Made by a program: the position numbers and the translations under genes. The notes below the pieces were generated by a model. The model was not told the origin of the DNA and made no database searches. It was given only the letters and a program-made list of their open reading frames with translations. Source: Anaeromyxobacter sp. Fw109-5 (GTDB lineage Bacteria; Myxococcota; Myxococcia; Myxococcales; Anaeromyxobacteraceae). Taken from it: 64,000 nt of DNA. Where the stretch lies: contig NC_009675.1 in assembly GCF_000017505.1 (NCBI RefSeq), forward strand, positions 2,985,001 through 3,049,000, written 5' to 3'. Positions 33,538-61,666 of this stretch are shown in pieces (position 1 is the first letter of the stretch; each line of letters starts with the position of its first letter).

Positions 33538-33677
33538 CGGGGTGAGCAGACCACGTCAGCACCCGGTTGTCACGGGACGTCACGGACGGTGTCCGGGATC
33601 CGCCCGCCTGCCCAGCAGGGTGAGCGGAGGGGAACCGGTTGCCAGCGCTCCCCCGGATCCCGACCGTCTCTGAGGAT

Positions 33678-37697: not shown

Positions 37698-37825
37698 GTC
37701 CACCTCTGTGGCCTAGAAGGTGCGCGCACCCCGGGCCGCCCGGCCACCGTCCGTTCGGGGTCCGCTCGGCGGCCGGCCGGGCAGGCGTGCGCACGCGCAG
37801 CGCGCCCCGCCTCGGGCGGAGCGCC

Positions 37826-39131: not shown

Positions 39132-40337
39132 TCAGCCGCCCCGGGCCCCCGCGAGCCCGCTCGCCTCCAGCGAGCGGCGCGCCCGGCGGAGGGCTCCCCA
39201 CACCAGCTCCGGCGCCACGGATCTCGCGAACCCCCGCGCGGCGCGGAAGGCGTCCTGCGCCGCCACCGCCGTGCCCGCCCGCACCGACGGCGCCTGGAGC
39301 CGGGCGCTGCACGTCTCGCGGCGATCCCACGCCCAGTCCATCTTGTACGCCTCGGTGCCGCGCAAGAAGTCGTAGTCGGTGAGCCCGCGCGCGTAGGCGT
39401 CCTCGACGGTCCGCCCGACCAGCACGACCCCCGGGCTGCGCGCCGACCACGCCGGGTCGTAGCCGGACTGGTAGTAGAAGAAGCGGCGGCCCACCTCGAG
39501 GCCGTAGACCGCCGCGATGGCGTCCCGCCCCACGAACAGCCGATACAGGCGCAGCCAGCCGCGCTCCGCGAGCAGCGGCGCGAGCTCGCGGTGGAAGTCC
39601 TCGACGGGGCCGGGCGGGATCCCGGAGGAGCCTCCCTCGACCTGCCAGCGCAGGCGGTGGAGCCGCAGGAAGTCGTCCATCGCCGCGGCCGCCTCCTCCT
39701 GGCTCGTGGTCACCTCGACGCGGAAGCCCGGCTGTCGCTCCAGCCATCGGACGCGACGGCCGTAGGTCTCGCGCCGGCGGATCCGCGCGAGGTGCTCCTC
39801 GAACGTGCCCCGCACGACGAACCCCGGGCAGACGAAGCCGCGCTCCACCTGCGTACGCACGCCCGTCGGCGCCATCGCCTCGCGCAGCGCCGAGAGGGTC
39901 GGCGAGCCGCAGGGGAGGTCCTCGAGGTCGAGCACGTCCCACCGCGTCACGCCCGCGGCCAGCGCGCGCGCGACGGCGCTGCGAGCCGCCGCCGCCAGGT
40001 CGGGGCGGGCGAGCACGTCGAGGCCGTCCGCGCCGGTGAGGCCGTTCCCGAGGAGGCTCCAGCGCCGCTCGCCGAGGAGTCCGTGGCGCCCCGACAGCAC
40101 GAGCAGGCCGGCCAGGCGCGCGGCGGGATCGCGCGCCTCGAGGATCCAGATCGGCCGGCGCGCCGCGAAGCAGCGGTGGAAGGTGTGGAGCCACTCCCAC
40201 GAGAGGAACGGCGACGGCGCCTGCGCCGCGTCGAACAGCGCGCGCCACTCCTCCTTCAGCGCGCCGAGCCGGGCCGCGTCCCGGTGCTCGAGCACCGTGA
40301 GGCCGCCCGCGGGGCGGGCCTGGTCCGCGGGGTTCAC
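39132..40337 (-). CDS. GNAT-fold FemAB/CelD-like acyltransferase (second of pair)
   Basis: A 401-residue protein of the GNAT_6 (CelD-like)/FemAB type (PF13480). Tell-tale segments are SPFLSWEWLHTFHRCF near residue 45, SGRHGLLGERRWSLLG, RRETYGRRVRWLER and AAVYGLEVGRRFFYYQSGYDPAWSARSPGVVLV near 300. It ends with the DYDFLRGTEAYKMDW motif. Such proteins transfer acyl or aminoacyl groups and are common in exopolysaccharide loci, including exosortase-linked ones. GTG 40337 overlaps the DegT gene stop in GTGA. It may modify an amino-sugar made by the DegT enzyme; the donor is unknown. Confidence 0.82.
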   Translation of the reverse strand: MNPADQARPAGGLTVLEHRDAARLGALKEEWRALFDAAQAPSPFLSWEWLHTFHRCFAARRPIWILEARDPAARLAGLLVLSGRHGLLGERRWSLLGNGLTGADGLDVLARPDLAAAARSAVARALAAGVTRWDVLDLEDLPCGSPTLSALREAMAPTGVRTQVERGFVCPGFVVRGTFEEHLARIRRRETYGRRVRWLERQPGFRVEVTTSQEEAAAAMDDFLRLHRLRWQVEGGSSGIPPGPVEDFHRELAPLLAERGWLRLYRLFVGRDAIAAVYGLEVGRRFFYYQSGYDPAWSARSPGVVLVGRTVEDAYARGLTDYDFLRGTEAYKMDWAWDRRETCSARLQAPSVRAGTAVAAQDAFRAARGFARSVAPELVWGALRRARRSLEASGLAGARGG

Positions 40338-41515
40338 TCGAGGGCCTCCTTCACGCACCGGGCGAGGTACGCCATGTCGTCGGGCTGCAGGTCCTGGTGG
40401 ACGGGCAGCTCCAGCACGCGGCGCCGGAGCGCTTGCACGTCCGGGAAGGAATCGTCCGGACAGAGCGGGTGCCCGGTGCGCCAGAAGTCGACCGTCTCGA
40501 TGCCGCGGGCCGCGAGGCGCGCGGCCACCGCCGCCTTGTCGTCGCAGAGGAGCGGGTAGAAGAGCGGGCTCGCGCCGGCGGGCAGCTCCGGGAAGACCGG
40601 CGAGACGCGCTCGCGCAGGCGGCCGAGGAGCAGGAAGTAGTTGCGGCGTCGCGCGGCGACGATCGCCTCCCCGTCGAGGCGCCGCGCGATGAGCTCGGAC
40701 ACCGCGCTCATCCCGAGGTCGACCGTCGCCGGATCGAAGGTCATGGTGCCGGTGGACACCGGCCGGACGCCGGTCGCGCCGCGCACCAGCGCGTAGGCGC
40801 GCCGCGCCGCGCCCCGCAGCGCCTCGCCCGCCTCGCCGAGCCGGAAGGCGGCGTTCTGGAGGAGCGAGCCGGTCGCGTGGGACAGCGTGGACACGAGCGG
40901 CGCGGCCTCGGGGGCCGGCACGTCGCCGTGCAGCGCGGGGTCGTTCACCACCAGCGCGCCGCCGTTCGGCACGGGCAGCGTCTTGTAGAAGCAGAAGATC
41001 CCGAGCGTGCCCACCGAGCCGAGCGGCCGCGTCCCTTCGGCGGCGAGGAGCGACAGCGCGCAGTCCTCCATCACCGGCAGCCCGTGGCGCCGCGCGACCG
41101 CCATGACGTCGTCCATGGGCTGCGCGAACCCCGCGTAGTGGATGACGTACAGCGCCCGCGTGCGGGGACCGATCTTGGCCTCGAGATCCTCGAGGTCGAG
41201 GCGCATGCGCGCGTCCACCCGCACGAAGCGCGGGAGCGCTCCGGCCGCGACGAGCGCCCCCACCTCCACGCCGTGGTGGTAGGCCGGGACCAGCACCTCG
41301 TTGGCCGGCAGCCCCAGCAGCTTCGCGCCGTGGTAGACGGCGTTCCGCGCGAGGTAGTAGCGCGTCAGGCGCTTCGCGCCGAACGGGAAGGCGGGCGGCC
41401 GGGAGGCGGCCAGGGGAGAGAGCATCCCGGGCCAGAGCGTGGGCAGCGCCGGGATGTAGCGCCGCCGGGACTCGCGCGCGGTGGGCCAGGTCCGGACCGC
41501 CATCGCTCGACTCAT
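40334..41515 (-). CDS. DegT/DnrJ/EryC1/StrS-family aminotransferase
   Basis: A 393-residue PLP-dependent sugar aminotransferase-family protein. LARNAVYHGAKLLGLPANEVLVPAYHHGVEVGALVAAG is the N-terminal core. YVIHYAGFAQPMDDV and MEDCALSLLAAEG supply the PLP-phosphate and Asp/Glu regions. Lys in FCFYKTLPVPNGGALVV near residue 200 is the likely Schiff-base residue, in the K-x-L-P-x-P-N-G-G form. ATG 41515 overlaps the upstream FemAB-like stop (ATGA) and its own stop overlaps the next FemAB-like start. Conversion of a keto-sugar to an amino-sugar is the usual reaction; the substrate is unknown. Confidence 0.85.
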   Translation of the reverse strand: MSRAMAVRTWPTARESRRRYIPALPTLWPGMLSPLAASRPPAFPFGAKRLTRYYLARNAVYHGAKLLGLPANEVLVPAYHHGVEVGALVAAGALPRFVRVDARMRLDLEDLEAKIGPRTRALYVIHYAGFAQPMDDVMAVARRHGLPVMEDCALSLLAAEGTRPLGSVGTLGIFCFYKTLPVPNGGALVVNDPALHGDVPAPEAAPLVSTLSHATGSLLQNAAFRLGEAGEALRGAARRAYALVRGATGVRPVSTGTMTFDPATVDLGMSAVSELIARRLDGEAIVAARRRNYFLLLGRLRERVSPVFPELPAGASPLFYPLLCDDKAAVAARLAARGIETVDFWRTGHPLCPDDSFPDVQALRRRVLELPVHQDLQPDDMAYLARCVKEALE

Positions 41516-42648
41516 CTCCACCACGAGAGCGCCTCCTTCACGGCCGGCCGGACCCGGTGCTTCAACGTGTGCATGGCCCTCCCGGCGAAGGAGGGCCGGT
41601 ACACGTAGAGCCAGTCATGGGGCGCGTGTGCCGGGGCCCAGTCGCGCTTCCACTCCATGTCCGGCCCGAGGAAGTCGAAGCGTGCGAGGCCGCGCGCCTC
41701 GCACTCGGCGAGCACCTCTCGCTGGAGGAGCTGCCCGGGCGAGACCTGTCCCAGCCGCTCGTCGTACGCGGTCTTCGGGAGGTAGTAGACGCCGCGGTGG
41801 ACCATCCCGAGGTGCACCGCGACGGCGCGGCCGTCGAGGGTGAGCGCGCGGAGGGCGAGGCCGCCGCGCGCCGCGGCGTCACGGGCGATGCGTGCGTAGA
41901 ACCGGACCAGGGCCGGATCGCCGGCGATCGCCGTGCCGCCCTCCCCCTTCCAGCCGCTGGCCTCGAGCGACAGGAACTCCGCCACCGCGACGTCGAGCCC
42001 CTCCGCGTCGTCCACGCGCTTCAGGGCCACCGCCCCCATCTCCCCGAGCCGCTTCGCGCGCCGGCGCAGGTTCGCGCGGAACTTGGAGCTGACGCGCTGC
42101 TCGGCGCCGCCTCCCGCGAGCTCGACGTACGGGGTGCGCAGCGACTCCCAGCGACCGGTGAGGTGGCGATCGGCGCGGGCGGCGGTCTCGAGCAGCACCG
42201 AGGTCGGCCCCTCGCGCGGGAGGTCGCGCAGCACGAGCACGTCCCACCGCAGCTCGTCGCGCAGGTACTCCCAGAGCGCTGCGACCGCGCCGGGAGGGTC
42301 GTCCCCGAGCGCCCACTCCACCCGGCAGGAGTGATCGTTGGCGGGCGCGACGAGCCGCGTCACGCCTCGCTCCCGCTCCACCAGGAACGCGGCCATCCCG
42401 GCTGCGCGGCCGCCGCGACCGCGCGCCACGAGGACCCGGAGCGGCGCGTCGGGGGCGAACGCGTCGAGCCAGGCCGCGAGCCACTCGTGCCTCGAGAAGG
42501 GTACGTCCACCGGCCCGCGCGCGAGCAGCGCGTTCCACTCCTCCCGGAGCGCGTCGAACGCCGCACGCCCCCGCAGCTCCTCGACCTCGTAGCGGGCGCC
42601 CGCCCGCTCGGGAGCGGCGACGAGGACGGTCTCGGCGGTCTCGATCAA
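41512..42648 (-). CDS. GNAT-fold FemAB/CelD-like acyltransferase (first of pair)
   Basis: A 378-residue GNAT_6/FemAB-like protein. Typical segments are VPFSRHEWLAAWLDAFAP near residue 50, RVEWALGDDP, SSKFRANLRRRAKRLGEMG near 185 and LTLDGRAVAVHLGMVHRGVYYLPKTAYDERLGQVSPGQLL near 270, then ARFDFLGPDMEWKRDW. It is related to but clearly different from the protein encoded at 39132-40337. The start is TTG 42648, supported by GAGGAG five bases upstream. It is followed by DegT with an ATGA overlap, so the trio is tightly coupled. Confidence 0.82.
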   Translation of the reverse strand: MIETAETVLVAAPERAGARYEVEELRGRAAFDALREEWNALLARGPVDVPFSRHEWLAAWLDAFAPDAPLRVLVARGRGGRAAGMAAFLVERERGVTRLVAPANDHSCRVEWALGDDPPGAVAALWEYLRDELRWDVLVLRDLPREGPTSVLLETAARADRHLTGRWESLRTPYVELAGGGAEQRVSSKFRANLRRRAKRLGEMGAVALKRVDDAEGLDVAVAEFLSLEASGWKGEGGTAIAGDPALVRFYARIARDAAARGGLALRALTLDGRAVAVHLGMVHRGVYYLPKTAYDERLGQVSPGQLLQREVLAECEARGLARFDFLGPDMEWKRDWAPAHAPHDWLYVYRPSFAGRAMHTLKHRVRPAVKEALSWWR

Positions 42649-42665: not shown

Positions 42666-43685
42666 TCAGCGGACACGCGCGATCGCGAGGAGCGCGCGCG
42701 CCAGCTTGCGGGGGTCGTGGCGGCCCGGCGCTCCCCCCGCGATGAGATCGGCCACCATCGGCACCGCCCCGGCGGCGTCGATTGCCTCCCGGTCCACTCG
42801 CACCGGCTCGGCGCCTTCCGCCGCGTAGGCCGCCACCGCCTCCGCCGGGAGCGGCGGCCGCTGCGCGAGCGCGACGTCCACCACGTCCCCGAGGTGGCGC
42901 TGGACCGCGCGCACGTGGTCGGCGGCGTCGAGCCCGTCTGACTCCCCCGCCTGCGTGAAGAGGTTCACGACCAGCACGCGGGTCGCGGAGGTGGAGCGCA
43001 GCGCCTCGGGGATCCCCGGCACGAGGAGCCCCGCGAGGACGCTCGAGTACAGGCTCCCCGGCCCGAGCACGACCAGGTCCGCCTCGCCGATCGCCTCGAT
43101 GGCCGACTCCGGCGCCACGCCCGCGCCGGCGAGCCGCAGCGTCGCGACCCGCCCGTGCGCCGCGGCGATGGCCGTCTCGCCCCGCACCACGCGGCCGTCG
43201 TCGAGCTCCGCCACGAGCTCCACCGGGGCGGCGGTCGCGGGGACCACCCGCCCGCGCACGCCGAGCATCCCGGCCGCGGCGTCGACGGCGCGGCCGAAGT
43301 CCCCGAGCCGCTGCGCGAGCGCCGTGAGCACGAGGTTGCCGATGGTGTGCCCGCCGAGCGCGCCGTCACCCGGGAAGCGGTGCTGGAACACGGCGGCGAG
43401 CGGGCTCGTCCCTCCGGCGAGCGCCACGAGGCAGTTGCGGACGTCGCCGGGCGCAGGGACGCCGTAGCGGCGACGGAGCTCGCCCGAGCTCCCGCCGTCG
43501 TCCGCGGTCGTGACGACGGCGGTGACGATCAGCTGCTCGCCCTCCTCGTCCGCGTCGGCGCCTTCGGTGGCGAGCCCCTCGAGCACGCAGGGCAGGCCGG
43601 TCCCGCCGCCCACGGCGGCGATCCGGAGCGGCCGCTCGGGCTCCGCGCGGAGCGGCGGCGCGACGGGCTGCTCGAGGACCCTCAT
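42666..43685 (-). CDS. yvcK: YvcK/CofD-like gluconeogenesis factor family protein
   Basis: A 339-residue YvcK (GlmR)-like protein. AAVGGGTGLPCVLEGLA, VVTTADDGGSSGELRRRYGVPAPGDVRNCLVALAG and FQHRFPGDGALGGHTIGNLVLTAL are the family's nucleotide-sugar binding blocks, and VLGPGSLYSSVLAGLLVPGI is also characteristic. In Bacillus and Mycobacterium, YvcK binds UDP-GlcNAc and links central carbon flow to cell-wall precursor synthesis. Here it is 2 nt after the initiating transferase and 17 nt before FemAB, inside the polysaccharide operon. That suggests sensing or supply of a UDP-sugar. ATG 43685 is clear. Confidence 0.88.
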   Translation of the reverse strand: MRVLEQPVAPPLRAEPERPLRIAAVGGGTGLPCVLEGLATEGADADEEGEQLIVTAVVTTADDGGSSGELRRRYGVPAPGDVRNCLVALAGGTSPLAAVFQHRFPGDGALGGHTIGNLVLTALAQRLGDFGRAVDAAAGMLGVRGRVVPATAAPVELVAELDDGRVVRGETAIAAAHGRVATLRLAGAGVAPESAIEAIGEADLVVLGPGSLYSSVLAGLLVPGIPEALRSTSATRVLVVNLFTQAGESDGLDAADHVRAVQRHLGDVVDVALAQRPPLPAEAVAAYAAEGAEPVRVDREAIDAAGAVPMVADLIAGGAPGRHDPRKLARALLAIARVR

Positions 43686-43687
43686 GA

Positions 43688-45085
43688 TCACTTCGCCCCC
43701 TTCCCGAGGAGCACCACCTTCGCGGTCGCGAGGAGGCAGACGAGGTCGAGGAACAGGGAGGCGTTCTTGATGTAGTAGAGGTCGTACTCGAGCTTGCGAG
43801 CCTGCTCCTCCATCGTGGAGCCGTAGCCGTACTTGAGCTGGGCCCACCCGGTCAGCCCCGGCTTGACGAGCTCACGTAGCGTGAAGAGGGGGTAGCGCGC
43901 CTTCAGCTCCGAGAGGAACACGGGCCGCTCCGGCCGCGGGCCGACGAGGCTCATGTCGCCGCGCAGGACGTTCCAGAGCTGCGGGAGCTCGTCGAGCCGG
44001 GCGCGCCGAAGGAAGCGGCCCACGGACAGCACCCGCGGATCCTCCTCGGTCGCCCACACCGCCCCCATCTTCTCGGCGTCGCGCCGCATGGTCCGGAACT
44101 TCCACATCCGGTAGGTCCGGCCGCTGCGCCCCGTGCGTTCCTGCGAGTAGAAGATCGGCCGGCCGTCGGACAGCCAGATGGCGAGCGCGGTCCCGAGCAT
44201 GAGGGGCGCCGCCGCGACGAGCATGAGCAGGGACAGGGCGAGGTCCAGCACGCGCTTCGAGGTGCGCGTCCCGCGCGACACGCGGAACCCGTCGTCGAAG
44301 ATGAGGGAGCTGGGCCGGACCAGGGAGAGCGGGATGCGCTGCAGCGTCGCCTCCGCGAAGCCCACGTCGTCCACCACGCGCCTGCCGCGGGTGCGGAGGG
44401 TGAGCAGGTCGTCGATGGGCAACCCCTCGCGCCGGTCCTCCATCGCGACGACGACGATCTGGGCGCGCTCTCGCCGCGCCACCTCGTACAGCGCGCCCGG
44501 GAGGATCGCCTGCGGCGAGACCGCCGGGGGCGCCACCGACCGGTCGGGCTTCACGAAGCCCACCGCGCGGTAGAGCCCGTCGGCCTCGCGCTCCATCGCG
44601 CGGGCGAGGTCGCGCGCCCTCGCGCCGGTCCCGAGGAACACGACGCGGGTCGGCGATCCCACCACGGCCGGCATCAGCACCCGCGCGGCGATGACGCCGA
44701 AGGCGCCGCCCGCGGCCGCGAGGACGAGCGAGCGGTGCAGCATCCAACCGGGGAGGAACAGGTCGAGGGCGACGTCGGCGAGGGCGATCGCGATCGCCGC
44801 GACGCCGATGGCGCGCAGCAGCCGTCTCCCGTCGGCGCGGTCCCGCACGGCCGCGTGCAGGTCGTACAGGTCGCCGAGGTAGAGCGCGCCGGCGAAGAAG
44901 ACCGAGGCGAGCGCGGCGCGGAGCACCGCCGGGTACACCGGCGGTCCGCCCACCGCGCTCGTCGCCTGGGCGGCCACCGGGCCGAGCGAGGCGCCCGCGA
45001 GCAGCGCGAGCACGAGCACCGTCTCCTCGGCGAAGAAGTACGCCGCCTTCCGCGGCGAGAACCAGTGGTTGAAGACCCGGACCAA
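43688..45085 (-). CDS. Polyprenyl-phosphate sugar-1-phosphate transferase (WbaP/WcaJ-type, initiating), first copy
   Basis: A 465-residue initiating transferase. Four N-terminal helices, a nucleotide-binding CoA_binding_3-like domain ([18 protein letters not shown] near 155), then the catalytic bacterial sugar transferase domain: [72 protein letters not shown] and [16 protein letters not shown]. It moves a sugar-1-phosphate from a UDP-sugar to undecaprenyl phosphate to begin the repeat unit. No ATG or GTG precedes the first helix; TTG 45085 is supported by GGAGGGGAGG upstream. It is 146 nt downstream of the CpsD-like gene. Confidence 0.9.
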
Positions 45086-45231: not shown

Positions 45232-45966
45232 CTACCCGGCGCGCCGGTTCGCGATGGCCGGCGCGGCCTCCCGGGCGCCGCCGTACAGCCAGCGGCCGTG
45301 CGCCACCGTCTCCGGATCCACGTCGTTCAGCACCACCCCGGCGGCGAGATCGCCGAGCGACTCGAGCGCGAGCCGCACGACCTGCCGCGGCGTCGCGCCG
45401 GCGCGGACCACGAGCACCGCCGCGTCGGCCGCGCCCGCGAGCCGCTCGCCGTCGGCGAAGGCCAGCGCCGGCGGCGCGTCGAGGACGACGAGGTCGTACG
45501 CCGCGCGGAGCTGCTCCACGAGGGCCGCGGTGCGCGGGTGGCGGATCGCCGCCGATGCGTCGCGCACCTCGCCGGCGCACAGCACCGACAGCTGCCCGAC
45601 CCGCACGACGGCCTGGGACAGCTCCGCGGAGCCGTCGAGCACCTCGGCGACGCCGGCGCGCGGCGCGAGCCCGAACAGGCTCGCGAGCGACGGCCGGCGG
45701 AGATCGGCGTCCACCAGCACCACCGTGCGGCCCTCCTGCGCCGCGGTGAGCGCCAGGTTCGCGGCGCTGGTGGTGCGCCCCTCGCCGCGGCTCGCGCTCG
45801 TGACGGCGATGACGCGCATGGGGCGCCGGGCCGCGAGCCGCGCGAGGCGCTGGTACAGCACGCGGTACTGCTCCGCCGCGGGGGAGTCCGGCGCGGCCAG
45901 CGCGACGAGGCCCTTCTCGGGCGCGGCCGCGGGGTGAGTTGCCTGAAGGGTCTCGGCAGGGATCAT
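45232..45966 (-). CDS. CpsD/CapB-like P-loop ATPase (BY-kinase family) with altered Walker A
   Basis: A 244-residue protein of the bacterial tyrosine kinase/MinD-like family that regulates chain length with Wzz proteins. The Walker A segment reads VTSASRGEGRTTSAANLAL: the Lys expected in GEGKT is Arg. Walker A' is VVLVDADLRRPSLASLFGL and Walker B is YDLVVLDAPPA. The C-terminus has only one Tyr (GRWLYGG) and no Tyr-rich tail of the sort usually phosphorylated. ATG 45966 has GGAGGA eight bases upstream. The Wzz-like gene is 33 nt upstream. It may bind nucleotide differently or act as a scaffold rather than a kinase. Confidence 0.85.
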   Translation of the reverse strand: MIPAETLQATHPAAAPEKGLVALAAPDSPAAEQYRVLYQRLARLAARRPMRVIAVTSASRGEGRTTSAANLALTAAQEGRTVVLVDADLRRPSLASLFGLAPRAGVAEVLDGSAELSQAVVRVGQLSVLCAGEVRDASAAIRHPRTAALVEQLRAAYDLVVLDAPPALAFADGERLAGAADAAVLVVRAGATPRQVVRLALESLGDLAAGVVLNDVDPETVAHGRWLYGGAREAAPAIANRRAG

Positions 45967-45999
45967 GTTTCCGTTCCTCCGATCGAGTACGCGCACGTT

Positions 46000-47367
46000 C
46001 TAGGAAGCCCGCCGACGGTCGATGCGCGGGATGGCGGCGAGCACCGGCACGCCCAGCGTCGCGGCGTCCTCCGGCCCTCGCATCGAGGCGTCCAGCCACT
46101 CCGCGAGCGCCGCCGCCCCGAGCCCCAGGGCGATGGCGGCGAGCACCGCGATCCACAGGAGCTTCGGCCGATCCGGCGAGGAGGGCAGCCGCGGCGCGAT
46201 CGGCGTCTCCACCATGCGGAACATCGTGGGCTGGTCCGCCGCGAGGAGCTGCTCGGCGGCCGCGGAGTCGGCGCGGCGCGAGATCGTCGCGGCGTACTTG
46301 GCGCGCAGCACCTCGTAGTCCCGCGACAGGTTCGCGAGCTCCTGCCCGAAGCGCGGCGCCGCGTCGATGCGCTTCTGGTAGCCGGCCATCTCCTTGCGCA
46401 GCGACGCGATCTGCGCCTCGTGGCCGCGCACCTCCTCGTCGAGGCGGGCGAGGTGACCCTGCACCCGCTCGCTCCGGAACTTGTCGAAGGCGCCCTCGCG
46501 CTGCGAACGCGACTCCTCCAGCTCGCGCCGGGCGCGCTTCACGTCGGGGTGATCCGCCCCGTAGGCCGCCTCGGCGGCGTTGAGCCGGCGCTGCGCGTCG
46601 GCGAGGGTGGACTCGGCGAGCCCTGGACCGCTCAGGCTCTCGGGGATGGAGGAGAGCACCTCCAGCCGGCGGCGCTGCGCGTCGGCGATCGCGCCGAGCC
46701 GCATCTCGATCTGGCTCTGCGCGCGCCCGATGGCGCGGGCGTTGTCCTCGAGCAGCTCGGGCAGCTCGGCGGTGTGCTCCACCTTGAAGGCGAGGAGCCG
46801 CTGCTCGTGCGCCGCGAGCTCCTTGCCCATCTGCTCCACCTGGCCGTCGAGCGTCTCGCGCAGGGCCCGCGCCTGCCCCTCCAGCACCTGGCGGGTGAGC
46901 TCGCCGTAGTACTTCGGCAGGAGCTCCGCCGCGCGCGCGACCTTCTCGGCATCACGGCCGTGCACCTCCACCACGAAGAGCAGCGCAGGAGCGCCGGAGG
47001 GGACCTCCCCCTCGAGCCGCACCTCGACGTTGCGCCTCATCTTCTCGAGCGCCTTGTCCATGTCGTCGCGCAGGTCGGGGTAGAAGTCGGTCTCGCGGAT
47101 CACCCGCTCGAGCACCGGGCGCGCGAGGATGCCGTGCTTGATGGTGCGCATCCGGTCCTCGAACGGAGTCCCGTTCTGGGCGGGGAAGAAGTCGAGTCCC
47201 AGCCGCCGCGGCTCGATCTGGACGACCGAGGTCGCGGAGTACTCGGACGGCACGCCGAGCGCGAGGGCCACGCCGACGACGAGCACCGCGCCCGCGACGA
47301 CGAGCGCGAGAAGCCGGCGACGCCGCAGCGCCGCGAGGAGATCCTGCAACGTGTAGGTCCGTTCCAT
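46000..47367 (-). CDS. Wzz/GumC-like polysaccharide co-polymerase
   Basis: A 455-residue chain-length determinant protein. The Wzz domain begins TYTLQDLLAALRRRRLLALVVAGAVLVVGVALALG, with the first membrane helix at about 20-38. A long periplasmic coiled coil covers roughly 150-350 (for example DGQVEQMGKELAAHEQRLLAFKVEHTAELPELLEDN). The second helix, LLWIAVLAAIALGLGAAALAEWLD, is near the C-terminus, and a short cytoplasmic tail with PVLAAIPRI follows. No kinase domain is fused; the separate CpsD-like gene is next. It should set polymer length with Wzy and link to the OPX channel. Confidence 0.88.
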   Translation of the reverse strand: MERTYTLQDLLAALRRRRLLALVVAGAVLVVGVALALGVPSEYSATSVVQIEPRRLGLDFFPAQNGTPFEDRMRTIKHGILARPVLERVIRETDFYPDLRDDMDKALEKMRRNVEVRLEGEVPSGAPALLFVVEVHGRDAEKVARAAELLPKYYGELTRQVLEGQARALRETLDGQVEQMGKELAAHEQRLLAFKVEHTAELPELLEDNARAIGRAQSQIEMRLGAIADAQRRRLEVLSSIPESLSGPGLAESTLADAQRRLNAAEAAYGADHPDVKRARRELEESRSQREGAFDKFRSERVQGHLARLDEEVRGHEAQIASLRKEMAGYQKRIDAAPRFGQELANLSRDYEVLRAKYAATISRRADSAAAEQLLAADQPTMFRMVETPIAPRLPSSPDRPKLLWIAVLAAIALGLGAAALAEWLDASMRGPEDAATLGVPVLAAIPRIDRRRAS

Positions 47368-47377
47368 TCGTCCTTCC

Positions 47378-48610
47378 TCACCGTTCCGGCAGAGCCCAGC
47401 CCAGCCGGAGGCCGAACGTCGTCCGCGGCTGCGCGAACGGGTCGTCCTCCCCCGTGTCGACCGAGAGAGACTCGATCCGCGCGAAATGTGCCGCTCCGAA
47501 CGCGATGCGCACCCCTCCCCCGACGAGGAGTGCCGCCTCGCCGGCGACCAGATAGCCCGTCACCGCGTCTTCACCCTTCCAGTACAGACCGCTCCCCGCG
47601 CCCTCCCCGCCCGGAGTCCGCCCGGAGCGCCAGATGCCGCTGTCTCCCCGGAGCTCGAACCGCCGCGCGAACCTGCGCGCCAGCCCCAGCTCCGTCCAGT
47701 CGTTGAGGCCGGGGCGTGCGGTGTTCCCGAGGCCGAGGCCGTGGGCGAGCACCGCGCGCATCTCCCAGCCCCGGCTCGCGCCGAACAGCTCGATCCCGCC
47801 CTCGGGCACCACGGCGCCATCGCCGGACTTGAACCAGAGCGCGGGTCCCGCCCAGGCGTTCGCGTAGTAGTGCCGCGTGAGCTGGTACCGCGCCCGCGCG
47901 CGAAGCCCGTGCGCGTTGGCCCACTCGGTCCTGTCCCCCGTCACGTCGTCGACGAGGAACTCCTGGAACAACGACGCGACGTAGGCGCCACCGATCGAGA
48001 GTCGGCGGTCCGAGCGGTACAGCGTCTCGACCCCGGCCTGGTGCATCGCGCCGCCCGTGCGATCCTGGGGGAAGCGCACCATCTCCTCGGCGACCGTCCC
48101 CGCGACCTCGAGGTGCTCGGTGAGGCGGTACTCCGCCCGGCCTCTGCCACGCAGCGTGAACACCTCCTCGAGGCCGTCCACGTCCTCGGGGAAGATCCCC
48201 ATCTGCGCGAGTCCGGCCGGGTCATAGGCGTACGCGCCCCGGAGCGTTCCGCGCAGCGTGAGGCGCCTGGTCGCTCGGGCGTCCAGCGAGACGGAGCCCC
48301 GGTGGTTCCAGCTCCCGTTCGGCTGGAGCCGGTCGTACCTGACGAAGTCCGCGCCGTAGACGGTGCGGAGATCCCACGTGTGGTCGCGCAACCGCAGCCC
48401 GACCTCCGGAGACACCCGCCCCGTGCGATCGCTGCTCCCATAGTACAGCGCGTTCGAGTCGTAGCCGCCCTCGAGGGTGAGGCGGGCGATGGGCTCCACC
48501 ACCGTGCTCGCCGCCGCCGACGCGGACGCGCAGAGGACCGCGACGCAGAGCGCCGCCTTCCCGGTGCGCCCCCGCGTGCCCACCGCCCACCTCCTCCTGT
48601 GCGCTCGCAT
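47378..48610 (-). CDS. Outer-membrane beta-barrel protein paired with OPX
   Basis: A 410-residue exported protein. A basic N-terminus and hydrophobic signal segment (KAALCVAVLCASASAAAS) precede STVVEPIARLTLEGGYDSNALYYGSSDRTGRVSPEVGLRLRD. The rest is alternating beta-strand sequence with aromatic girdles through to the end (FGLRLGWALPER). This fits a large barrel such as BBP2 (EpsX-like) or the outer-membrane proteins of exosortase-type loci. In Myxococcus, short OPX proteins work with separate 18-strand barrels. Here the OPX gene is 16 nt upstream and Wzz 10 nt downstream. ATG 48610 is chosen because it directly precedes the signal peptide. Confidence 0.78.
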   Translation of the reverse strand: MRAHRRRWAVGTRGRTGKAALCVAVLCASASAAASTVVEPIARLTLEGGYDSNALYYGSSDRTGRVSPEVGLRLRDHTWDLRTVYGADFVRYDRLQPNGSWNHRGSVSLDARATRRLTLRGTLRGAYAYDPAGLAQMGIFPEDVDGLEEVFTLRGRGRAEYRLTEHLEVAGTVAEEMVRFPQDRTGGAMHQAGVETLYRSDRRLSIGGAYVASLFQEFLVDDVTGDRTEWANAHGLRARARYQLTRHYYANAWAGPALWFKSGDGAVVPEGGIELFGASRGWEMRAVLAHGLGLGNTARPGLNDWTELGLARRFARRFELRGDSGIWRSGRTPGGEGAGSGLYWKGEDAVTGYLVAGEAALLVGGGVRIAFGAAHFARIESLSVDTGEDDPFAQPRTTFGLRLGWALPER

Positions 48611-48626
48611 GGCCGGCTCCGTCCCG

Positions 48627-49208
48627 CTACGGCACGTAGAGGACGTCGCCTGCCTTGAGCCAGAGCGCACCCTCCGCCTCCCCCTTCACGAGCTCGTCGA
48701 ACGAGAGCTTCACCCGCTCGGTCTTCCCGTCCTGCTTCTGGCGCAGCCAGTTCACGTCGCCCTTGGCGAACTCGGTCCGCCCTCCGGCCAGCGCGATCGC
48801 CTGCACCACGCTCATCGGGCCTCGCAGCGGGAACCCGCCGGGGCGAGTCACCTCGCCGAGCACGTAGACGCGCGTCCCGTTGATCTCGCGGACCAGCACC
48901 GCGACCGAGGCGTCCTGGATGTACGGCCCGAGCGCCTTGGTGAGGCCCTGCTGAAGCTCCGCGGGCGTCTTCCCCGCCGCCTCCATCTCTCCCGCGAGCG
49001 GGAGGGAGATCTTCCCGTCCGGGCGGACCGGCACGACCCGGGTGAGCTCGGGCTCGCGCCACACGACGACCTCGAGCACGTCCTCGCGCCCGATGCGGTA
49101 CTCGCCGACGTCGGGTCGGGGATCAGGCCGCTCGGAAGGACCCGACGAGGCGCACGCCGCTGCGGCGAGGAGCACGCCAGCCATCACTGCCCTCTTCGTG
49201 AAGACCAT
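48627..49208 (-). CDS. Short OPX (Wza-family) polysaccharide export lipoprotein
   Basis: A 193-residue polysaccharide export protein. The lipobox is LLAAAACAS (Cys19). The Poly_export domain follows: GEYRIGREDVLEVVVWREPELTRVVPVRPDGKISLPLAGEMEAAGKT. One SLBB domain comes next, with TRVYVLGEVTRPGGFPLRGPMSVVQAIALAGG. The protein ends at GDVLYVP with no further domain, so it lacks the C-terminal amphipathic helix that Wza uses to cross the outer membrane. It therefore matches the short OPX type that needs a separate porin. ATG 49208 has GGAGGA five bases upstream. It is the first gene of the main polysaccharide operon. Confidence 0.9.
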   Translation of the reverse strand: MVFTKRAVMAGVLLAAAACASSGPSERPDPRPDVGEYRIGREDVLEVVVWREPELTRVVPVRPDGKISLPLAGEMEAAGKTPAELQQGLTKALGPYIQDASVAVLVREINGTRVYVLGEVTRPGGFPLRGPMSVVQAIALAGGRTEFAKGDVNWLRQKQDGKTERVKLSFDELVKGEAEGALWLKAGDVLYVP

Positions 49209-49435
49209 CCAGTTCCTCCAGGGACACGCGTCCCGAAGCGACTACCTCGCATCGAGCACACCGCGTGCCACGCCGCGTCGTGCACCCCGAGCGAAGGTCG
49301 GCGCGCACCGCGCCGCTCCGTCGGCGCACGTGCTCCGCGCGATCCGGCGTGCGCCCACCACCGCGCCACGCGAGCGAGCGGCTGCCGCCGAGAGCGGGCC
49401 GCGGTTCGCCGCTGAGGAACAATTTTCCCTCGCGT

Positions 49436-49811: not shown

Positions 49812-51275
<1,464 letters not shown>

Positions 51276-51424
51276 CGTGGTTCCATTGGCAGCGAGGTCC
51301 TTGCCGCCGGTGTGAAAATGGAACGACCACCTGTTTCCGGCACCGGCCCGAACGCGGCGGGGGACAGGCGAGCGAGCGCTTCGCTTCGCTCGCGCAGCGT
51401 GGCGTTCCATGACATACCGGGGCG

Positions 51425-51783: not shown

Positions 51784-52698
51784 GTGACGGCCCGCGCGAG
51801 CCGCGCCCGCGTCGGACTCTCGAGCGCGGCGCCCCCGTCCCTCGACGCCCCCCTCTGGATCGGCGCGCCGCCCGCAGCCCGTGCGCACGCTCGTGTCGTG
51901 GCGCGCGCCGAGTACCACGTCCACACCTCCGCCTCCTACGACTCGCGGGCCAGCCCCGCGGAGCTCGTCGAGCGCGCGCTCGCCGCCGGCCTCGACGTCG
52001 TCTTCGTGACCGATCACGACACCATCGACGGCGCGGTGGCGGTGCAGGCCGCCGCCGGGCGGAGGCTCCGCGTCGTGGTCGGGTGCGAGTTCACCTGCGA
52101 CGACGGCTCGCACGTGATCGGCCTCGGGCTGCGCGACTTCATCGCCGAGCGGCGCGTCCCCGCCGTGCTCGAGCGCCTCAAGGCGCAGGGCGCGACGATC
52201 GTGCTCCCGCACCTGTTCCGGCGCGGCAGCGGCATCTTCCGCGACGAGCTCCGGCGCGATCAGGACTTCGTCCGGATGGCGCTGTCGTACGCGGACGCGG
52301 TCGAGTGCTTCAACGCCCGCGACGGCTGGGAGAAGAACCAGCGCAGCCAGCGGTTCGCGCTCGAGCGCGGGCTCCCGGTGGTGGCGGGCAGCGACGCGCA
52401 CGCCGCGCGCGAGCTCGGCCGCGTGTTCGTCGAGTACGACGAGGAGCCGTTCGCCGAGAGCTTGTCCGCGCGGCGCATCTACTTCCCTTCGCAGCGCGCG
52501 GTCGCGGAGGCGCCCTCGAGGCGGAGGGCGATGGAGCTCGTCCACGGATCGCTCCGGCGGTTCCCCGCCCTCGACCGGAGCTACCGCGCGCTGCGGAGCC
52601 GGCTCGGACGCGACCGGCCGCGCTGGGCGAACGCCGCGCCCTGCATGCAGCACGATCTCCCGCGCGCGACGCCGCGCGCCGCTCCGCGCGAGGGCTGA
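51784..52698 (+). CDS. PHP-domain metal-dependent phosphoesterase
   Basis: Up to 304 residues. The PHP motifs are AEYHVHTSASYDSRASPAELV near residue 40, FVTDHDTIDGAVAVQ, VVGCEFTCDDGSHVIGLGL and VAGSDAHAARELGRVF, which supply the His/Asp/Glu metal ligands. The family includes the YciV/RNase AM and TrpH-like phosphoesterases. CpsB-type phosphatases in capsule loci also have a PHP fold but a different sequence. The first 38 residues are low in complexity; GTG 51898, just before the PHP domain, is an alternative start to GTG 51784. It is 1 nt ahead of the initiating transferase gene and so co-transcribed. The substrate is unknown. Confidence 0.75.
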   Translation: MTARASRARVGLSSAAPPSLDAPLWIGAPPAARAHARVVARAEYHVHTSASYDSRASPAELVERALAAGLDVVFVTDHDTIDGAVAVQAAAGRRLRVVVGCEFTCDDGSHVIGLGLRDFIAERRVPAVLERLKAQGATIVLPHLFRRGSGIFRDELRRDQDFVRMALSYADAVECFNARDGWEKNQRSQRFALERGLPVVAGSDAHAARELGRVFVEYDEEPFAESLSARRIYFPSQRAVAEAPSRRRAMELVHGSLRRFPALDRSYRALRSRLGRDRPRWANAAPCMQHDLPRATPRAAPREG

Positions 52699-52699
52699 C

Positions 52700-53347
52700 G
52701 TGGCCCGGGCGCTCCAGCTCGCGGTGAAGCGCGCCGCCGACGTGGTCGGGGCGGCGCTCCTCCTCGCCCTCCTCTCCCCTCTCCTCGCGGTCATCGCCGT
52801 CGCCGTGCGGCTGACGTCTCCCGGAGAGGCGCTGTTCCGGCAAGCCCGCGCCGGGCGGGGCGGCCGCACCTTCACGATCCTGAAGTTCCGCACGATGGTA
52901 CGGGACGCCCCGTCGTCGCCCCTCGGCTCGTACTGCTACGCGGACGACCCGCGCATCACGCGGCTCGGGCGGATCCTGCGCGCGACGAGCCTCGACGAGC
53001 TCCCGCAGCTCGTGAACGTGCTGCGCGGCGACATGAGCTTCGTCGGGCCGAGGCCCGACCTCCCGCATCACGTCGCGCGCTACACGCTCGCGCAGCGGCG
53101 CCGCCTCGAGCTGCGGCCCGGGATCACCGGGTGGGCGCAGGTGAACGGTCGGAACGACATCCCGTGGGAGCGGCGGATCGAGCTGGACCTGCAGTACATC
53201 GCCCGCTGGTCGCTCTGGCTCGACGCCGTCGTGGTCGTGCGGACGGTCCGGGTGCTCTTGACGGGCAAGGGAGTCCGGCTCCCGAAGAAGGTGGGGGACA
53301 CCTCGTGGCAAACCGAAGGGAAGGCGAGCGGCTCACCGCGGTCGTGA
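52700..53347 (+). CDS. Short polyprenyl-phosphate sugar-1-phosphate transferase (initiating), second copy
   Basis: A 215-residue monotopic sugar transferase of the PglC/WcaJ catalytic type. The N-terminal membrane-associated helix is [83 protein letters not shown] and [22 protein letters not shown] are the catalytic blocks. It lacks the N-terminal multi-helix and nucleotide-binding domains seen in the larger copy at 43688-45085. GTG 52700 is directly after the PHP gene. A second initiating enzyme implies a second repeat unit or a choice of first sugar. Confidence 0.88.
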
Positions 53348-54369
53348 CCGGGGTCGGGGCGCCGCCCGCGATCAGCATCTTCAAGGCGCTGCGCCAGTCG
53401 GCCCTCCACCCGCGCGTCGTCGCGACGGACGCGGAGCCGACGTCCGTCGGGCTCTTCCGCGCGGACGCAGGTTACGTCGTCCCGCGGATCCGGGACGGCG
53501 AGGAGGCGTACCTCGATCGCCTCGAGGCGATCTGCCGGCGCGAGCGCGCCGCGATCGTGTGCTTCGGGTCCGAGGAGGAGCTGCGCCGCGTGGCGCCGCA
53601 TGCGCGACGGATCGAGGAGCGGACGGGCGCGAGGCCGATCGTGAACGCGCCGCACAACCTGGACGCGTTCCTCGACAAGTGGGGGATGTTCGTCGCGCTG
53701 CGCGAGAAGGGGCTGCCCGTCCCGGACTCCGTCCTCGCGAGCGACGGCGACGCCGTCCGCGGGTTCCTCGCGCGGCACCGCTTCCCCCTCGTGCTGAAGC
53801 CGCGGCACGGTTCCGGCTCGAAGAACCTGTTCCGCGTGAAGGACGCCGACGAGCTCGGCTTCCTCGTCCGCTACGTCCCCGAGCCGGTCCTGCAGGAGCT
53901 GCTGCTCCCGGACGACGAGGAGTACACGGTCGGCGTCTACAAGAGCCCGCGGGCCGGCTACGTGGGTCAGATCGTGTTCCGCCGGAGCCTCGCCGCGGGG
54001 CTCACCTACAAGGCGGAGGTCGTGGACGATCCGGAGATCGAGGCGGTCTGCCGCCAGGTCGTGGAGGCGTTCGACTTCTGGGGGCCGGTGAACCTGCAGC
54101 TCCGCAAGACGTCGGCCGGGGTGCGCGTGTTCGAGATCAACCTGCGCTTCTCGAGCTCGGCGGTGATGCGCGCGTACTTCGGGTTCAACGAGCCCGAGCT
54201 GTGCCTGCGCGACCTCGTCCTCGGCGAGCGGCTCGCCGCGCCCGAGGTCCGGCCGGGATGGGCGCTCCGGTACTGGGACGAGGTGTACGTCTCGGAGGGA
54301 GAGGTCGCGCGGGTGCGGGAGCGCGGGTATGTCGAGGGCGCGCCGGGCGTGAAGGCGAACGATCTCTGA
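53305..54369 (+). CDS. ATP-grasp carboxylate-amine ligase-like enzyme
   Basis: A 354-residue ATP-grasp protein. The N-terminal pre-ATP-grasp domain begins [22 protein letters not shown]. The ATP-grasp domain has NAPHNLDAFLDKWGMFVAL, PLVLKPRHGSGSKNLFRV (nucleotide-binding loop near residue 170), EPVLQELLLPDDEEYTVGVY and RVFEINLRFSSSAVMRAYFGFNEPEL with the metal-binding Glu/Asn. Such proteins join a carboxyl group to an amine or thiol and occur in many surface-polysaccharide clusters, where they may add amino acids to sugars. GTG 53305 lies 42 nt inside the preceding gene, so translation may be coupled. Substrates are unknown. Confidence 0.82.
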   Translation: MANRREGERLTAVVTGVGAPPAISIFKALRQSALHPRVVATDAEPTSVGLFRADAGYVVPRIRDGEEAYLDRLEAICRRERAAIVCFGSEEELRRVAPHARRIEERTGARPIVNAPHNLDAFLDKWGMFVALREKGLPVPDSVLASDGDAVRGFLARHRFPLVLKPRHGSGSKNLFRVKDADELGFLVRYVPEPVLQELLLPDDEEYTVGVYKSPRAGYVGQIVFRRSLAAGLTYKAEVVDDPEIEAVCRQVVEAFDFWGPVNLQLRKTSAGVRVFEINLRFSSSAVMRAYFGFNEPELCLRDLVLGERLAAPEVRPGWALRYWDEVYVSEGEVARVRERGYVEGAPGVKANDL

Positions 54370-54448
54370 GGGCACCTTGCCTGACGAGGCGCGGCGATCG
54401 CGGTCGCGGCCTCGGCCGCTGCGTTGCCTCGACCGCGGAGACCGCAGT

Positions 54449-55993
54449 TCACGGTCCGTCGTAAGCTCCGACCCCACCCGGCGCGATGATCGCGCCGGTC
54501 GAGTCCTTCACCGCGCCGAAGGCGAAGTACACGACGCGACCGCCCTCGGACCAGCGGTCGACCTGGATGTTCTGGACCGAGTGGCCCGCGAACGCGGGCG
54601 CGCCCTCCACGGCGACGCGCTCGAACGCCCCGTTCTTCCACCGCAGGACGCCGCCCGCGGCGACTCCTATCCAGACTGAGCCGTCACTCCAGTCGCAGGC
54701 GACCGAACGCGCGCCCTCGTAATCCGGCAGCGGGAAGTGCGCGATCGCGCCGGATCGATCGATGCGGGCCAGCCCGTGTCTGAGCGATCCCGCCCAGAGC
54801 GTTCCGTCGGCGCAGTGTGACAGGGATCGTACGGCGTCGTCCGCCTCGTCGTCGACCGGGTACGGATCGTCACCGTCGGGCCAGAGGTCCCTGGCCCACA
54901 TGCCGAACCGCCGGTTCGTCAGGTCGACGCCGTATCCCAGGATCGTCGCAGTACGAAGGCCGTTCGACGCCCAAGGCATCCCGTTCCTCGGGTCGATGGA
55001 CATCGCGTACCCCTCGCCGAAGTGGGACTGGACGGTGCCGTCCGGCAGCTTGCCTTCGACGATGGGGTGGTGGTGCTCCCAGAAATCCTTCATGTCGGCC
55101 CACATCGGGTCCACGCCGGCGGTGGTGTCCTTCCAGTTCCGCAGCTCCGTGGCGTTCAGCAGCACCGCCAGCGTGGCGTGCCCCCCGCCCATCCACGCGT
55201 CGCCGTACATCAAAGTGGAAGCGTCGTGGTTCACGGCGATGCGGTTGACGCGCCGGAACAGGCGGCGGCCCCAATCCCACCATGGCGTGGACTCGAGCGG
55301 CTCCGCACCCTCCGGCGGTTCGCACGTGTCGACCCACTGCTCGTGCCCGTAATCGCAGATGACGTGAGGCGGCGCGCCGGTCCGGACGTGGCGCACCCGG
55401 TTCATGGTCTTGGCGACGGGATCGAACGCGACCACGTCGACTCCCCCGGTGTCGAGGGCCCAGTCGACCCCATCGTCCGCCTCGTGGCCGAATCCGTCGA
55501 AGCCGATCAGGGCCTTTCCGGGCGCGGCACCTGCGACCGAGATCGCAGGGCACAGAACGAACGGGTTTGGCGGAAACTGCACGAAGATGTCCGCCGGATC
55601 GTTGCATTTCGCGGAGAGTCCGGCGTTGCCGGCGTCGAAGCGAAGGAACTGCTCGTCGGTACGGGCCTTGGCGAACACGGCGTCGCCGCCGGCCACGTAC
55701 ACGTTGCCGCCCTCGTCGGCCGAGACGTCATGGACCTCCGGGGAGATACCCTGCGACACGCCGTGGTACGTCCAGTACCCGACGCGGACGGGCGGCTGGT
55801 CGACGGGGGCCGGATCCGACGTGGCGGGATCGGGAGCGCCCGCGTCGGGGGTCGCCGGGTCCGGTGCGCCCGCGACCGGCGGCCCGTAGGTGGGCGCAGG
55901 CGTGTCACCCGCCCGATCCCGGTCCGTACAGCGCGCTGCGACGAGCGCCAGCAAAGCGCCGGCAGTGAGCGCAATCCGCGAGGCTTCGAGCAT
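54449..55993 (-). CDS. Exported lipoprotein with propeller-type repeats, unknown function
   Basis: A 514-residue secreted protein. The N-terminus (RIALTAGALLALVAARC) has a likely lipobox cysteine, then a Pro/Ala/Asp-rich linker with near-repeats of APDPATPDAG. Blades of a beta-propeller are suggested by repeats such as SADEGGNVYVAGGDAVFAK, CADGTLWAGSLRHGLARIDRSG and WSDGSVWIGVAAGGVLRWKNG, close to the Reg_prop/two-component propeller pattern. No kinase or enzymatic motif is seen. ATG 55993 directly precedes the signal. It is divergent from the first beta-helix gene across 375 nt; a shared role at the cell surface is plausible but not shown. Confidence 0.7.
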   Translation of the reverse strand: MLEASRIALTAGALLALVAARCTDRDRAGDTPAPTYGPPVAGAPDPATPDAGAPDPATSDPAPVDQPPVRVGYWTYHGVSQGISPEVHDVSADEGGNVYVAGGDAVFAKARTDEQFLRFDAGNAGLSAKCNDPADIFVQFPPNPFVLCPAISVAGAAPGKALIGFDGFGHEADDGVDWALDTGGVDVVAFDPVAKTMNRVRHVRTGAPPHVICDYGHEQWVDTCEPPEGAEPLESTPWWDWGRRLFRRVNRIAVNHDASTLMYGDAWMGGGHATLAVLLNATELRNWKDTTAGVDPMWADMKDFWEHHHPIVEGKLPDGTVQSHFGEGYAMSIDPRNGMPWASNGLRTATILGYGVDLTNRRFGMWARDLWPDGDDPYPVDDEADDAVRSLSHCADGTLWAGSLRHGLARIDRSGAIAHFPLPDYEGARSVACDWSDGSVWIGVAAGGVLRWKNGAFERVAVEGAPAFAGHSVQNIQVDRWSEGGRVVYFAFGAVKDSTGAIIAPGGVGAYDGP

Positions 55994-56368
55994 GGCAGGG
56001 CTCCGAGTTCCCGGCGCCTGGAAGCTATCGTCGCCCCCTCGCCAGTGGTGAGGACCGCACTGGGTGGGCACGTCGGGCAACCCCTGCGTCGATCGGGCAC
56101 CCTTCCGCTCACCGCGTCTCTCCCCGGGGCGATCTACCGGCGCGCTCCAGGACGTCGGGAATCCGCCGGGTCGACCTGGCACAGAGACCTCTCCTTCGGC
56201 CCCTGAAAACGCGGGCACAGCGCCCGACATGTGGCTGCCTGTAGGCCGCGCGTCCGGAATTGCGCCTGGCTCCTCGCGCGTTTGAGAGGGGCCGCGCGAA
56301 AGGGGCGCTCCTCACCGGTCTTCGCCCGCTCGCTCGGCTTTCTCCTGGGAAGGGGCAACGAGAGGCCG
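55994..56368. other. Divergent intergenic region, lipoprotein / beta-helix gene
   Basis: These 375 bases separate the starts of two divergent exported proteins and should hold both promoters. They are less GC-rich than neighbouring coding DNA in places (for example 56205-56280), but no convincing -35/-10 pair, -24/-12 pair or long palindrome was found. Open frames crossing it have no supporting features. Confidence 0.4.
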
Positions 56369-57658
56369 ATGAAGAACAGCATCCGTGGAGTCGTCGCGTC
56401 CGCAATCGCGGCATTGATCGTGACCGCTGGCTGCAGCGATTCGTCGCTGGTGGATCCCTCGACCGTCCAGTTCGGTGCGGACACGCTCCCTGACCCGTCG
56501 CGTGGAGCTCTCGCCGTCACCCCCGCAGACGTCGAGGTCGTGCCCGGCGGAACCCTGGCGTTCTCTGCCTCGTCGGCCGCGACCTGGTCCGTCGCCGAGC
56601 CCGAAGGTGGCACGATCGACGAGCGCGGCAGCTACACCGCCCCCCAAGCCGAGGGCACGTACCAGGTGGTCGCCACGAGCCGCGATGGCGTCGGCCAGGC
56701 GATCGCGTCGGTGCGCGTCACGCAGGGCGCGCGCCCCACCAGCCCGCCGGCGGACGGCACCACCCCGTGGGCGCCCGCTCCGGATGACACGGAGTGGGTG
56801 GACGTGCGGAGCTTCGGGGCGGTCGGCGACGCCGTCGCCGACGACACCTCGGCGTTCCGGAGCGCCGCCGCGACGGGCAAGAAGCTCTTCGTCCCCGCCC
56901 CTCCGGTCGCGTACAAGCTGACCGGCAATGTCGAGGTGAAGAACTCCGTCTATGGAGACGGATCGATGCCGCTCATCCGCATGTACGGCGCGGACGGCGA
57001 TCCCGATCAACGCCCCACTCACAGCATCTTCTACATCGCGAGGTACCAAGGCCCTGGGCTCGTCATCAATGGCCTGCACCTCGATGGCCAGTGGGACGGC
57101 GGCACGAACGGCGAGTATTCGATGGGCATCTACATCCTCAGCAGCAGCAACGTGACGGTGCAGCACTGCAACATCGAGCGGGCGTATGGAGATGACATCT
57201 TCGTCGCGGCGTTCGCGGAGCCGATGTCGAACAACATCGTCATCGAGAACAACACGCTGGGCACCCCTCGCCGATGCAACATCGCGGTGAACGGCGCCAC
57301 GAACGTGACGATCCGGAACAACCAGATCACGAAGACCAGCAGCTACGTCAGCGCGATCGATCTCGAGCCCGACCAGCTGGGCGTCCAGTATGTCCGCGGC
57401 GTCGTCATCGACGGCAACCGCTTCGACGTGGTGGCGCAGGCCTACTACGCGGGCGCCATCAACCTGAACAATCCCGCCCAGAACCCGGCGTCGGGCGACG
57501 TGAGCGTGACCCACAACAGTGGCACCTGGACCCCGACGGCCCCGTACATGGACACGGTCCCCGGGAGCGCCGGCCTCGTCAGCGTGGTGCCGAGCGGCGG
57601 CATCGCCAGGCAGCCCTGGTACAACGTCACCGCCACCAACAACACTCCAACCCCTTAG
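56369..57658 (+). CDS. Secreted parallel beta-helix protein with Ig-like N-terminal domain
   Basis: A 429-residue lipoprotein-like protein. The signal ends in LIVTAGCSDS, a lipobox. Residues about 50-120 form a bacterial Ig-like domain (AVTPADVEVVPGGTLAFSAS ... GTYQVVATSRDGVGQAIASVRV). The beta-helix begins WVDVRSFGAVGDAVADDTSAFRSAAATGKKLFVP near residue 148, the usual opening of pectate_lyase_3/rhamnogalacturonase-like folds, and coils such as SSSNVTVQHCNIERAYGDDIFVA and NNIVIENNTLGTPRRCNIAVNGATNVTIRNNQI follow. Such folds include polysaccharide lyases, hydrolases and epimerases. Catalytic residues cannot be fixed. A close paralogue follows 168 nt later. Confidence 0.8.
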   Translation: MKNSIRGVVASAIAALIVTAGCSDSSLVDPSTVQFGADTLPDPSRGALAVTPADVEVVPGGTLAFSASSAATWSVAEPEGGTIDERGSYTAPQAEGTYQVVATSRDGVGQAIASVRVTQGARPTSPPADGTTPWAPAPDDTEWVDVRSFGAVGDAVADDTSAFRSAAATGKKLFVPAPPVAYKLTGNVEVKNSVYGDGSMPLIRMYGADGDPDQRPTHSIFYIARYQGPGLVINGLHLDGQWDGGTNGEYSMGIYILSSSNVTVQHCNIERAYGDDIFVAAFAEPMSNNIVIENNTLGTPRRCNIAVNGATNVTIRNNQITKTSSYVSAIDLEPDQLGVQYVRGVVIDGNRFDVVAQAYYAGAINLNNPAQNPASGDVSVTHNSGTWTPTAPYMDTVPGSAGLVSVVPSGGIARQPWYNVTATNNTPTP

Positions 57659-57676
57659 GCCCGGACCCTCGGGCAT

Positions 57677-57718
57677 ACCCGGAGACCCTCCCCGTGTCTG
57701 GCGGAGGAGTCTCCGGGT
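57677..57718 (+). terminator. Hairpin after the first beta-helix gene
   Basis: A 10-bp perfect outer stem (ACCCGGAGAC / GTCTCCGGGT) with a second inner CCTCC/GGAGG stem, starting 18 nt past the stop. No T-run follows. It lies between the two tandem beta-helix genes and probably ends or stabilises the first transcript. Confidence 0.5.
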
Positions 57719-57826
57719 GGATTCTCGCCCGTGGTGGCTCCCTCGCCAGGCCACGCCGGCGGGCTTGGCTGGGGACCCTCCGCGCGGCGCACGGGTGATG
57801 GCCCGCTGCGGCCTTAACATGACCGC

Positions 57827-58924: not shown

Positions 58925-58987
58925 CGCCTGGACGAGCACGGATGGTCCCAGGCGCAGCCCGCGACGCGCGGACCGAGGGCGACCCCC

Positions 58988-61560: not shown

Positions 61561-61666
61561 CTCCGGATCCCTCGGTTTGCGCCACCGCGCGACCGCTGGC
61601 CAACGTAGTCACGCGAGGCATCGACGTGTAGGCGCCCGGTCGAAAGGGAGTCCCCGGTGCGACCCG

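Follow-up and report, generated by a model that had tools for sequence, protein, structure and literature searches.

A short OPX protein and an adjacent outer-membrane barrel in Anaeromyxobacter sp. Fw109-5: a probable counterpart of the Myxococcus xanthus exoA-exoB exporter

In the window analysed here (a stretch of 64,000 nucleotides of the Anaeromyxobacter sp. Fw109-5 genome), a short OPX protein, putatively a lipoprotein, and the adjacent outer-membrane barrel very probably correspond to M. xanthus exoA-exoB and complete a Wzx/Wzy-type polysaccharide pathway at the outer membrane. Their reading as a composite OPX/beta-barrel exporter is supported by what we observed at the locus: the domain content of the OPX protein and its lack of a C-terminal helix, the fold of the barrel, the membership of both genes in one operon, and a conserved gene order. 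We regard the system as already known, because two things have been published: the translocon type, for which two papers of 2022 (PMC9601211, PMC9603273) proposed a composite exporter, and the contiguous MASC cluster of this strain, which was reported in 2020 (PMC7310880).

Results

The central genes lie on the minus strand in the order OPX, barrel, Wzz-type gene. The features of the operon and its surroundings are listed below.

49812-51410, minus strand: response regulator of NtrC type, a sigma-54 activator encoded upstream of the operon; Response_reg, Sigma54_activat and HTH_8 domains
49255-49270, minus strand: predicted sigma-54-type promoter TGGCACGCGGTGTGCT, 62 nt ahead of the OPX start; shuffle test, similar sites in relatives
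48627-49208, minus strand: short (D1D2, Class 3) OPX protein, putative lipoprotein, ExoA/WzaS-like, 193 aa; Pfam Poly_export and SLBB to the C-terminus, without Wza_C
47378-48583, minus strand: ExoB/WzpS-like outer-membrane beta-barrel, of 401 aa if read from the probable start; strand-only model, PDB fold matches to outer-membrane barrels, position conserved in relatives
46000-47367, minus strand: polysaccharide co-polymerase of Wzz type that lacks a kinase domain, ExoC-like; Pfam Wzz E 1.2e-6, TIGR03007 E 6e-55 (below cut-off)
45232-45996, minus strand: stand-alone bacterial tyrosine kinase, ExoD-like; TIGR01007 over cut-off, TIGR03018 E 1.7e-36 (below cut-off)
43688-45076, minus strand (start approximate; open reading frame open to 46156): polyprenyl phosphoglycosyl transferase, ExoE-like; TIGR03025 over cut-off, TIGR03013 386 bits against 393
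42666-43688, minus strand: YvcK/CofD-type protein, ExoF-like; TIGR01826 over cut-off, CofD E 1e-89
41512-42648, minus strand: GNAT/FemAB-type acyl or aminoacyl transferase, ExoG-like; Acetyltransf_6 E 7.6e-35, colinear
40334-41524, minus strand: DegT/DnrJ/EryC1-type aminotransferase, ExoH-like; PF01041 E 1.4e-27, 44-54% identity to order-level counterparts
39132-40358, minus strand: GNAT/FemAB-type transferase, ExoI-like; Acetyltransf_6 E 4e-36, colinear
37826-39052, minus strand: polysaccharide deacetylase; PF01522 E 1.3e-22
36399-37703, minus strand: candidate Wzy-type polymerase of the contiguous cluster; Wzy_C PF04932 E 9.5e-21
35251-36624, minus strand: glycosyltransferase family 4-type; Glyco_trans_1_4 E 2.2e-41
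33639-35213, plus strand: candidate Wzx-type flippase; Polysacc_synt_3 E 8.4e-11

The one-by-one pairing of these genes with M. xanthus exoF-exoI is probable and follows, in part, the published annotation.

OPX proteins of the D1D2 type (Class 3) are defined by Poly_export and SLBB domains without a Wza_C or GfcC domain, by a length of at most about 280 aa and by the absence of a C-terminal membrane helix; a type 2 signal peptide is usual, not universal. The window OPX fits this class, with Poly_export and SLBB as its only domains and no C-terminal membrane helix in its 193 aa. Pfam placed Poly_export at residues 35-106 (E 7e-24), SLBB at residues 113-166 and SLBB_2 at residues 113-192 of 193, in agreement with an earlier sequence-only reading in which the protein ends at a single SLBB domain. 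The same reading had it without a C-terminal helix to cross the outer membrane, and this was borne out: Pfam gave no Wza_C match and nothing convincing after SLBB, and the last element of the predicted structure was a strand (pLDDT 58.6, low confidence). Cys19 follows a signal-like hydrophobic segment and is invariant across 9 aligned sequences; in the window OPX the lipobox is weak, with Ala at position -3. By sequence the closest PDB chain was the M. xanthus Class-3 OPX WzaB (9n9a, E 6.5e-27), which also ranked first in the fold search. The Fw109-5 genome carries a second OPX-type gene (5184215-5184802, minus strand), whose open frame is 523 aa long, with 36% identity to the window OPX.

The barrel open reading frame lies where the sequence-only reading had put it, but the length and spacing given there are probably to be revised. 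Read from ATG 48610, the frame encodes 410 aa and begins 16 nt past the OPX stop. Within this longer reading a strong AGGAGG stands directly upstream of GTG 48583, at normal spacing, and an ATG occupies the matching position in 7 of 7 aligned relatives. Because of this motif and the starts of the relatives, the true start is probably GTG 48583, nine codons further in, which would give a protein of 401 aa and a gap of 43 nt.

In the predicted structure of the barrel the first 72 or so residues are disordered (pLDDT < 50); from residue 73 onward the chain is built of long antiparallel strands. Sixteen strands were listed (pTM 0.57, pLDDT 54, with residues 1-72 at very low confidence); for barrels of composite translocons the criterion is 18 strands. 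Both structure models are of low confidence (pLDDT 54 for the barrel, 59 for the OPX), with shallow alignments of 8 and 9 rows, and the strand count and pore shape of the barrel are therefore provisional. A barrel profile found no sequence match among PDB chains at E <= 1, and the protein was therefore placed by fold comparison only. The Foldseek matches listed were all outer-membrane barrel proteins, AlgE among them, and VIA-align of the model to outer-membrane barrels gave Z up to 15.3. The earlier description of an exported protein that reads as a beta-barrel is thus upheld by a strand-only model past residue 72 and by the identity of the listed PDB matches. The C-terminal residues TTFGLRLGW would fit the usual signal for barrel insertion. 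A check against BBP2 (PF10082) and TIGR03016 had been proposed; no Pfam or NCBIfam family, these two included, matched at E <= 1, and membership in either was rejected. The barrel is conserved between OPX and PCP in relatives, at 47-70% identity, and is therefore not a chance open reading frame.

We consider it very unlikely that the barrel is instead a helper that anchors or modifies a surface polymer, as Wzi does, with the OPX route leaving the cell in some other way. Wzi is likewise an 18-strand barrel tied to capsule operons (PMC9603273), and a barrel model of low confidence cannot reveal an open pore; nor does the absence of Wzi among the fold matches listed exclude anything, given that confidence. 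However, the OPX protein has no helix to cross the membrane and would be left with no other way across it. The mutants of M. xanthus also point to export, the exo barrel MXAN_3226 being essential for MASC secretion and the related eps barrel being the main EPS conduit (PMC9603273).

Gene order was compared within the family and across the order. The barrel was found in 13 of 24 family genomes, and OPX, barrel and PCP were adjacent in that order in all 13, so that the synteny check proposed for OPX-barrel pairs had a positive outcome. For a composite translocon the barrel gene is expected within five genes of the OPX; the two genes adjoin in the window, as they do in each of the 13 genomes. Three genera of the family (family genomes G013-G023) have neither the exo barrel nor the exo aminotransferase, while other OPX genes are present, and the exo operon therefore appears to be present or absent as a unit. 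In two fragmented family genomes the barrel was present and the aminotransferase was unmatched.

At the level of the order, the barrel profile matched 94 of 145 genomes. Twenty of these loci, from other families, were taken and the proteins of the window operon were mapped on them. From OPX through to the second GNAT gene, the arrangement was kept wholly or nearly so in 20/20: OPX, barrel, PCP, kinase, phosphoglycosyl transferase, YvcK/CofD, GNAT, aminotransferase, GNAT. YvcK went undetected in four loci and two GNAT genes in a single locus; a contig end truncated one locus. The barrel escaped BLAST in two loci, where the profile finds it. These order-level barrels are about 25-33% identical to the window barrel, and the colinear loci include one at 3.81 Mb in an 8.97-Mb genome. 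The exoA-I spore-coat operon is characterised by this nine-gene order from OPX to the second GNAT gene and by being required for the GalNAc/Glc/Gly spore coat. In M. xanthus it comprises MXAN_3225-3233 (PMC4320627; PMC2875238), with MXAN_3225/3226 as the OPX/barrel pair WzaS/WzpS (PMC9603273). The window carries the nine genes in the same order, colinear with the order-level loci.

Beside the operon lie the Wzy-type gene (36399-37703) and the Wzx-type gene (33639-35213), consistent with the cluster described in PMC7310880. A second polysaccharide gene set occupies 51784-63091, with a small phosphoglycosyl transferase (52700-53347), an ATP-grasp protein (53131-54369), a Wzy-type gene (58988-60337), a glycosyltransferase (60328-61560) and a Wzx-type gene (61667-63091). 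At 56231-58924 (plus strand) two adjoining similar open reading frames share long common stretches and look right-handed beta-helix-like by eye; the second of them had no Pfam match at E <= 1e-5.

It is extremely unlikely that the operon is an XrtA/PEP-CTERM exopolysaccharide export module, its polymer pathway serving an exosortase system: within NCBIfam, OPX, PCP and kinase match best to the XrtA-associated TIGR03027, TIGR03007 and TIGR03018, and the phosphoglycosyl transferase almost reaches TIGR03013, but all four models stay below their curated cut-offs, the barrel lacks a TIGR03016 match, the gene order as a whole matches exo, and the whole genome (single contig, 5,277,990 bases) has no exosortase (TIGR02602) match, so that this membership was rejected as largely refuted.

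When the region upstream of the operon was shuffled 1000 times, no shuffle reached the score of the predicted sigma-54-type promoter. Comparable sites stand upstream of OPX in six related family loci and in 20/20 order-level loci, one of the latter being weak (18 of 200 shuffles reach it); these 20 sites are not independent, because related sequences amount to repeated looks at one ancestral site. No report of a sigma-54-type promoter upstream of OPX was found in open-access papers. An NtrC-type regulator also lies upstream of OPX in several other families among the order-level loci, and was not found in Myxococcus-like loci within the stretch examined upstream of OPX. The regulator at 49812-51410 might correspond to ActB or to another developmental activator. 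Through the conserved sigma-54-type promoter, it should become testable how the exo operon is switched on across myxobacteria.

Discussion

The sequence-only reading had proposed a two-part secretion route beside a Wzz partner. This proposal stands: a D1D2 OPX, a protein with the fold of an outer-membrane barrel and a Wzz-type PCP are encoded next to one another, and neither a C-terminal helix in the OPX nor a failed barrel prediction appeared. By analogy with M. xanthus, the OPX, putatively a lipoprotein, would form a ring beneath the outer membrane, which the co-polymerase (46000-47367) and the tyrosine kinase (45232-45996) would feed from the inner membrane. Having no helix that spans the membrane, the OPX would attach to the barrel, and the barrel would be the path of the polymer across the outer membrane. 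The M. xanthus system likewise suggests a spore-coat-like cargo. Physical pairing of the two proteins may be expected from the M. xanthus work together with synteny; physical interaction and mutual stabilisation have been demonstrated only for EpsX/EpsY, which stabilise each other and co-purify (PMC9601211). Tentatively, the spore-coat export operon, kept whole in Anaeromyxobacter under the conserved sigma-54-type promoter and next to the NtrC-type regulator, could export a stress coat or a surface polymer of vegetative cells instead of serving fruiting-body spores, although we consider this rather unlikely.

Among known exporters, AlgE is likewise an outer-membrane barrel for a polysaccharide and was found among the fold matches of the barrel. 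Unlike the window pair, it is synthase-dependent and works without an OPX, and it was not the top match. E. coli Wza shares Poly_export and SLBB with the window OPX (aligned by fold, 2j58 is 29% identical to it in sequence), whereas Wza also carries an additional domain, and its C-terminal helix builds a pore of its own in the outer membrane. The parallel first drawn with EpsY/EpsX (WzaX/WzpX) of the M. xanthus EPS pathway holds in that a D1D2 OPX goes with a separate barrel, of 18 strands in EpsX. That pathway is paralogous, however, and the window OPX reaches 118 bits with NF041843 (EpsY), whose cut-off is 320; by gene order the closest counterpart is not EpsY/EpsX but ExoA/ExoB.

ExoA/ExoB (WzaS/WzpS) of the M. 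xanthus MASC/SPS operon is thus the closest known system. In both, a short OPX is followed by a barrel, a PCP, a stand-alone kinase and a phosphoglycosyl transferase, and the remaining genes of the operon also come in the same order. They differ in that the wzx- and wzy-type genes adjoin the operon in Anaeromyxobacter and lie elsewhere in M. xanthus (PMC7310880). The locus offers a clean and compact case of a published mechanism, a short OPX needing a separate barrel, in a genus whose assembly genes are contiguous.
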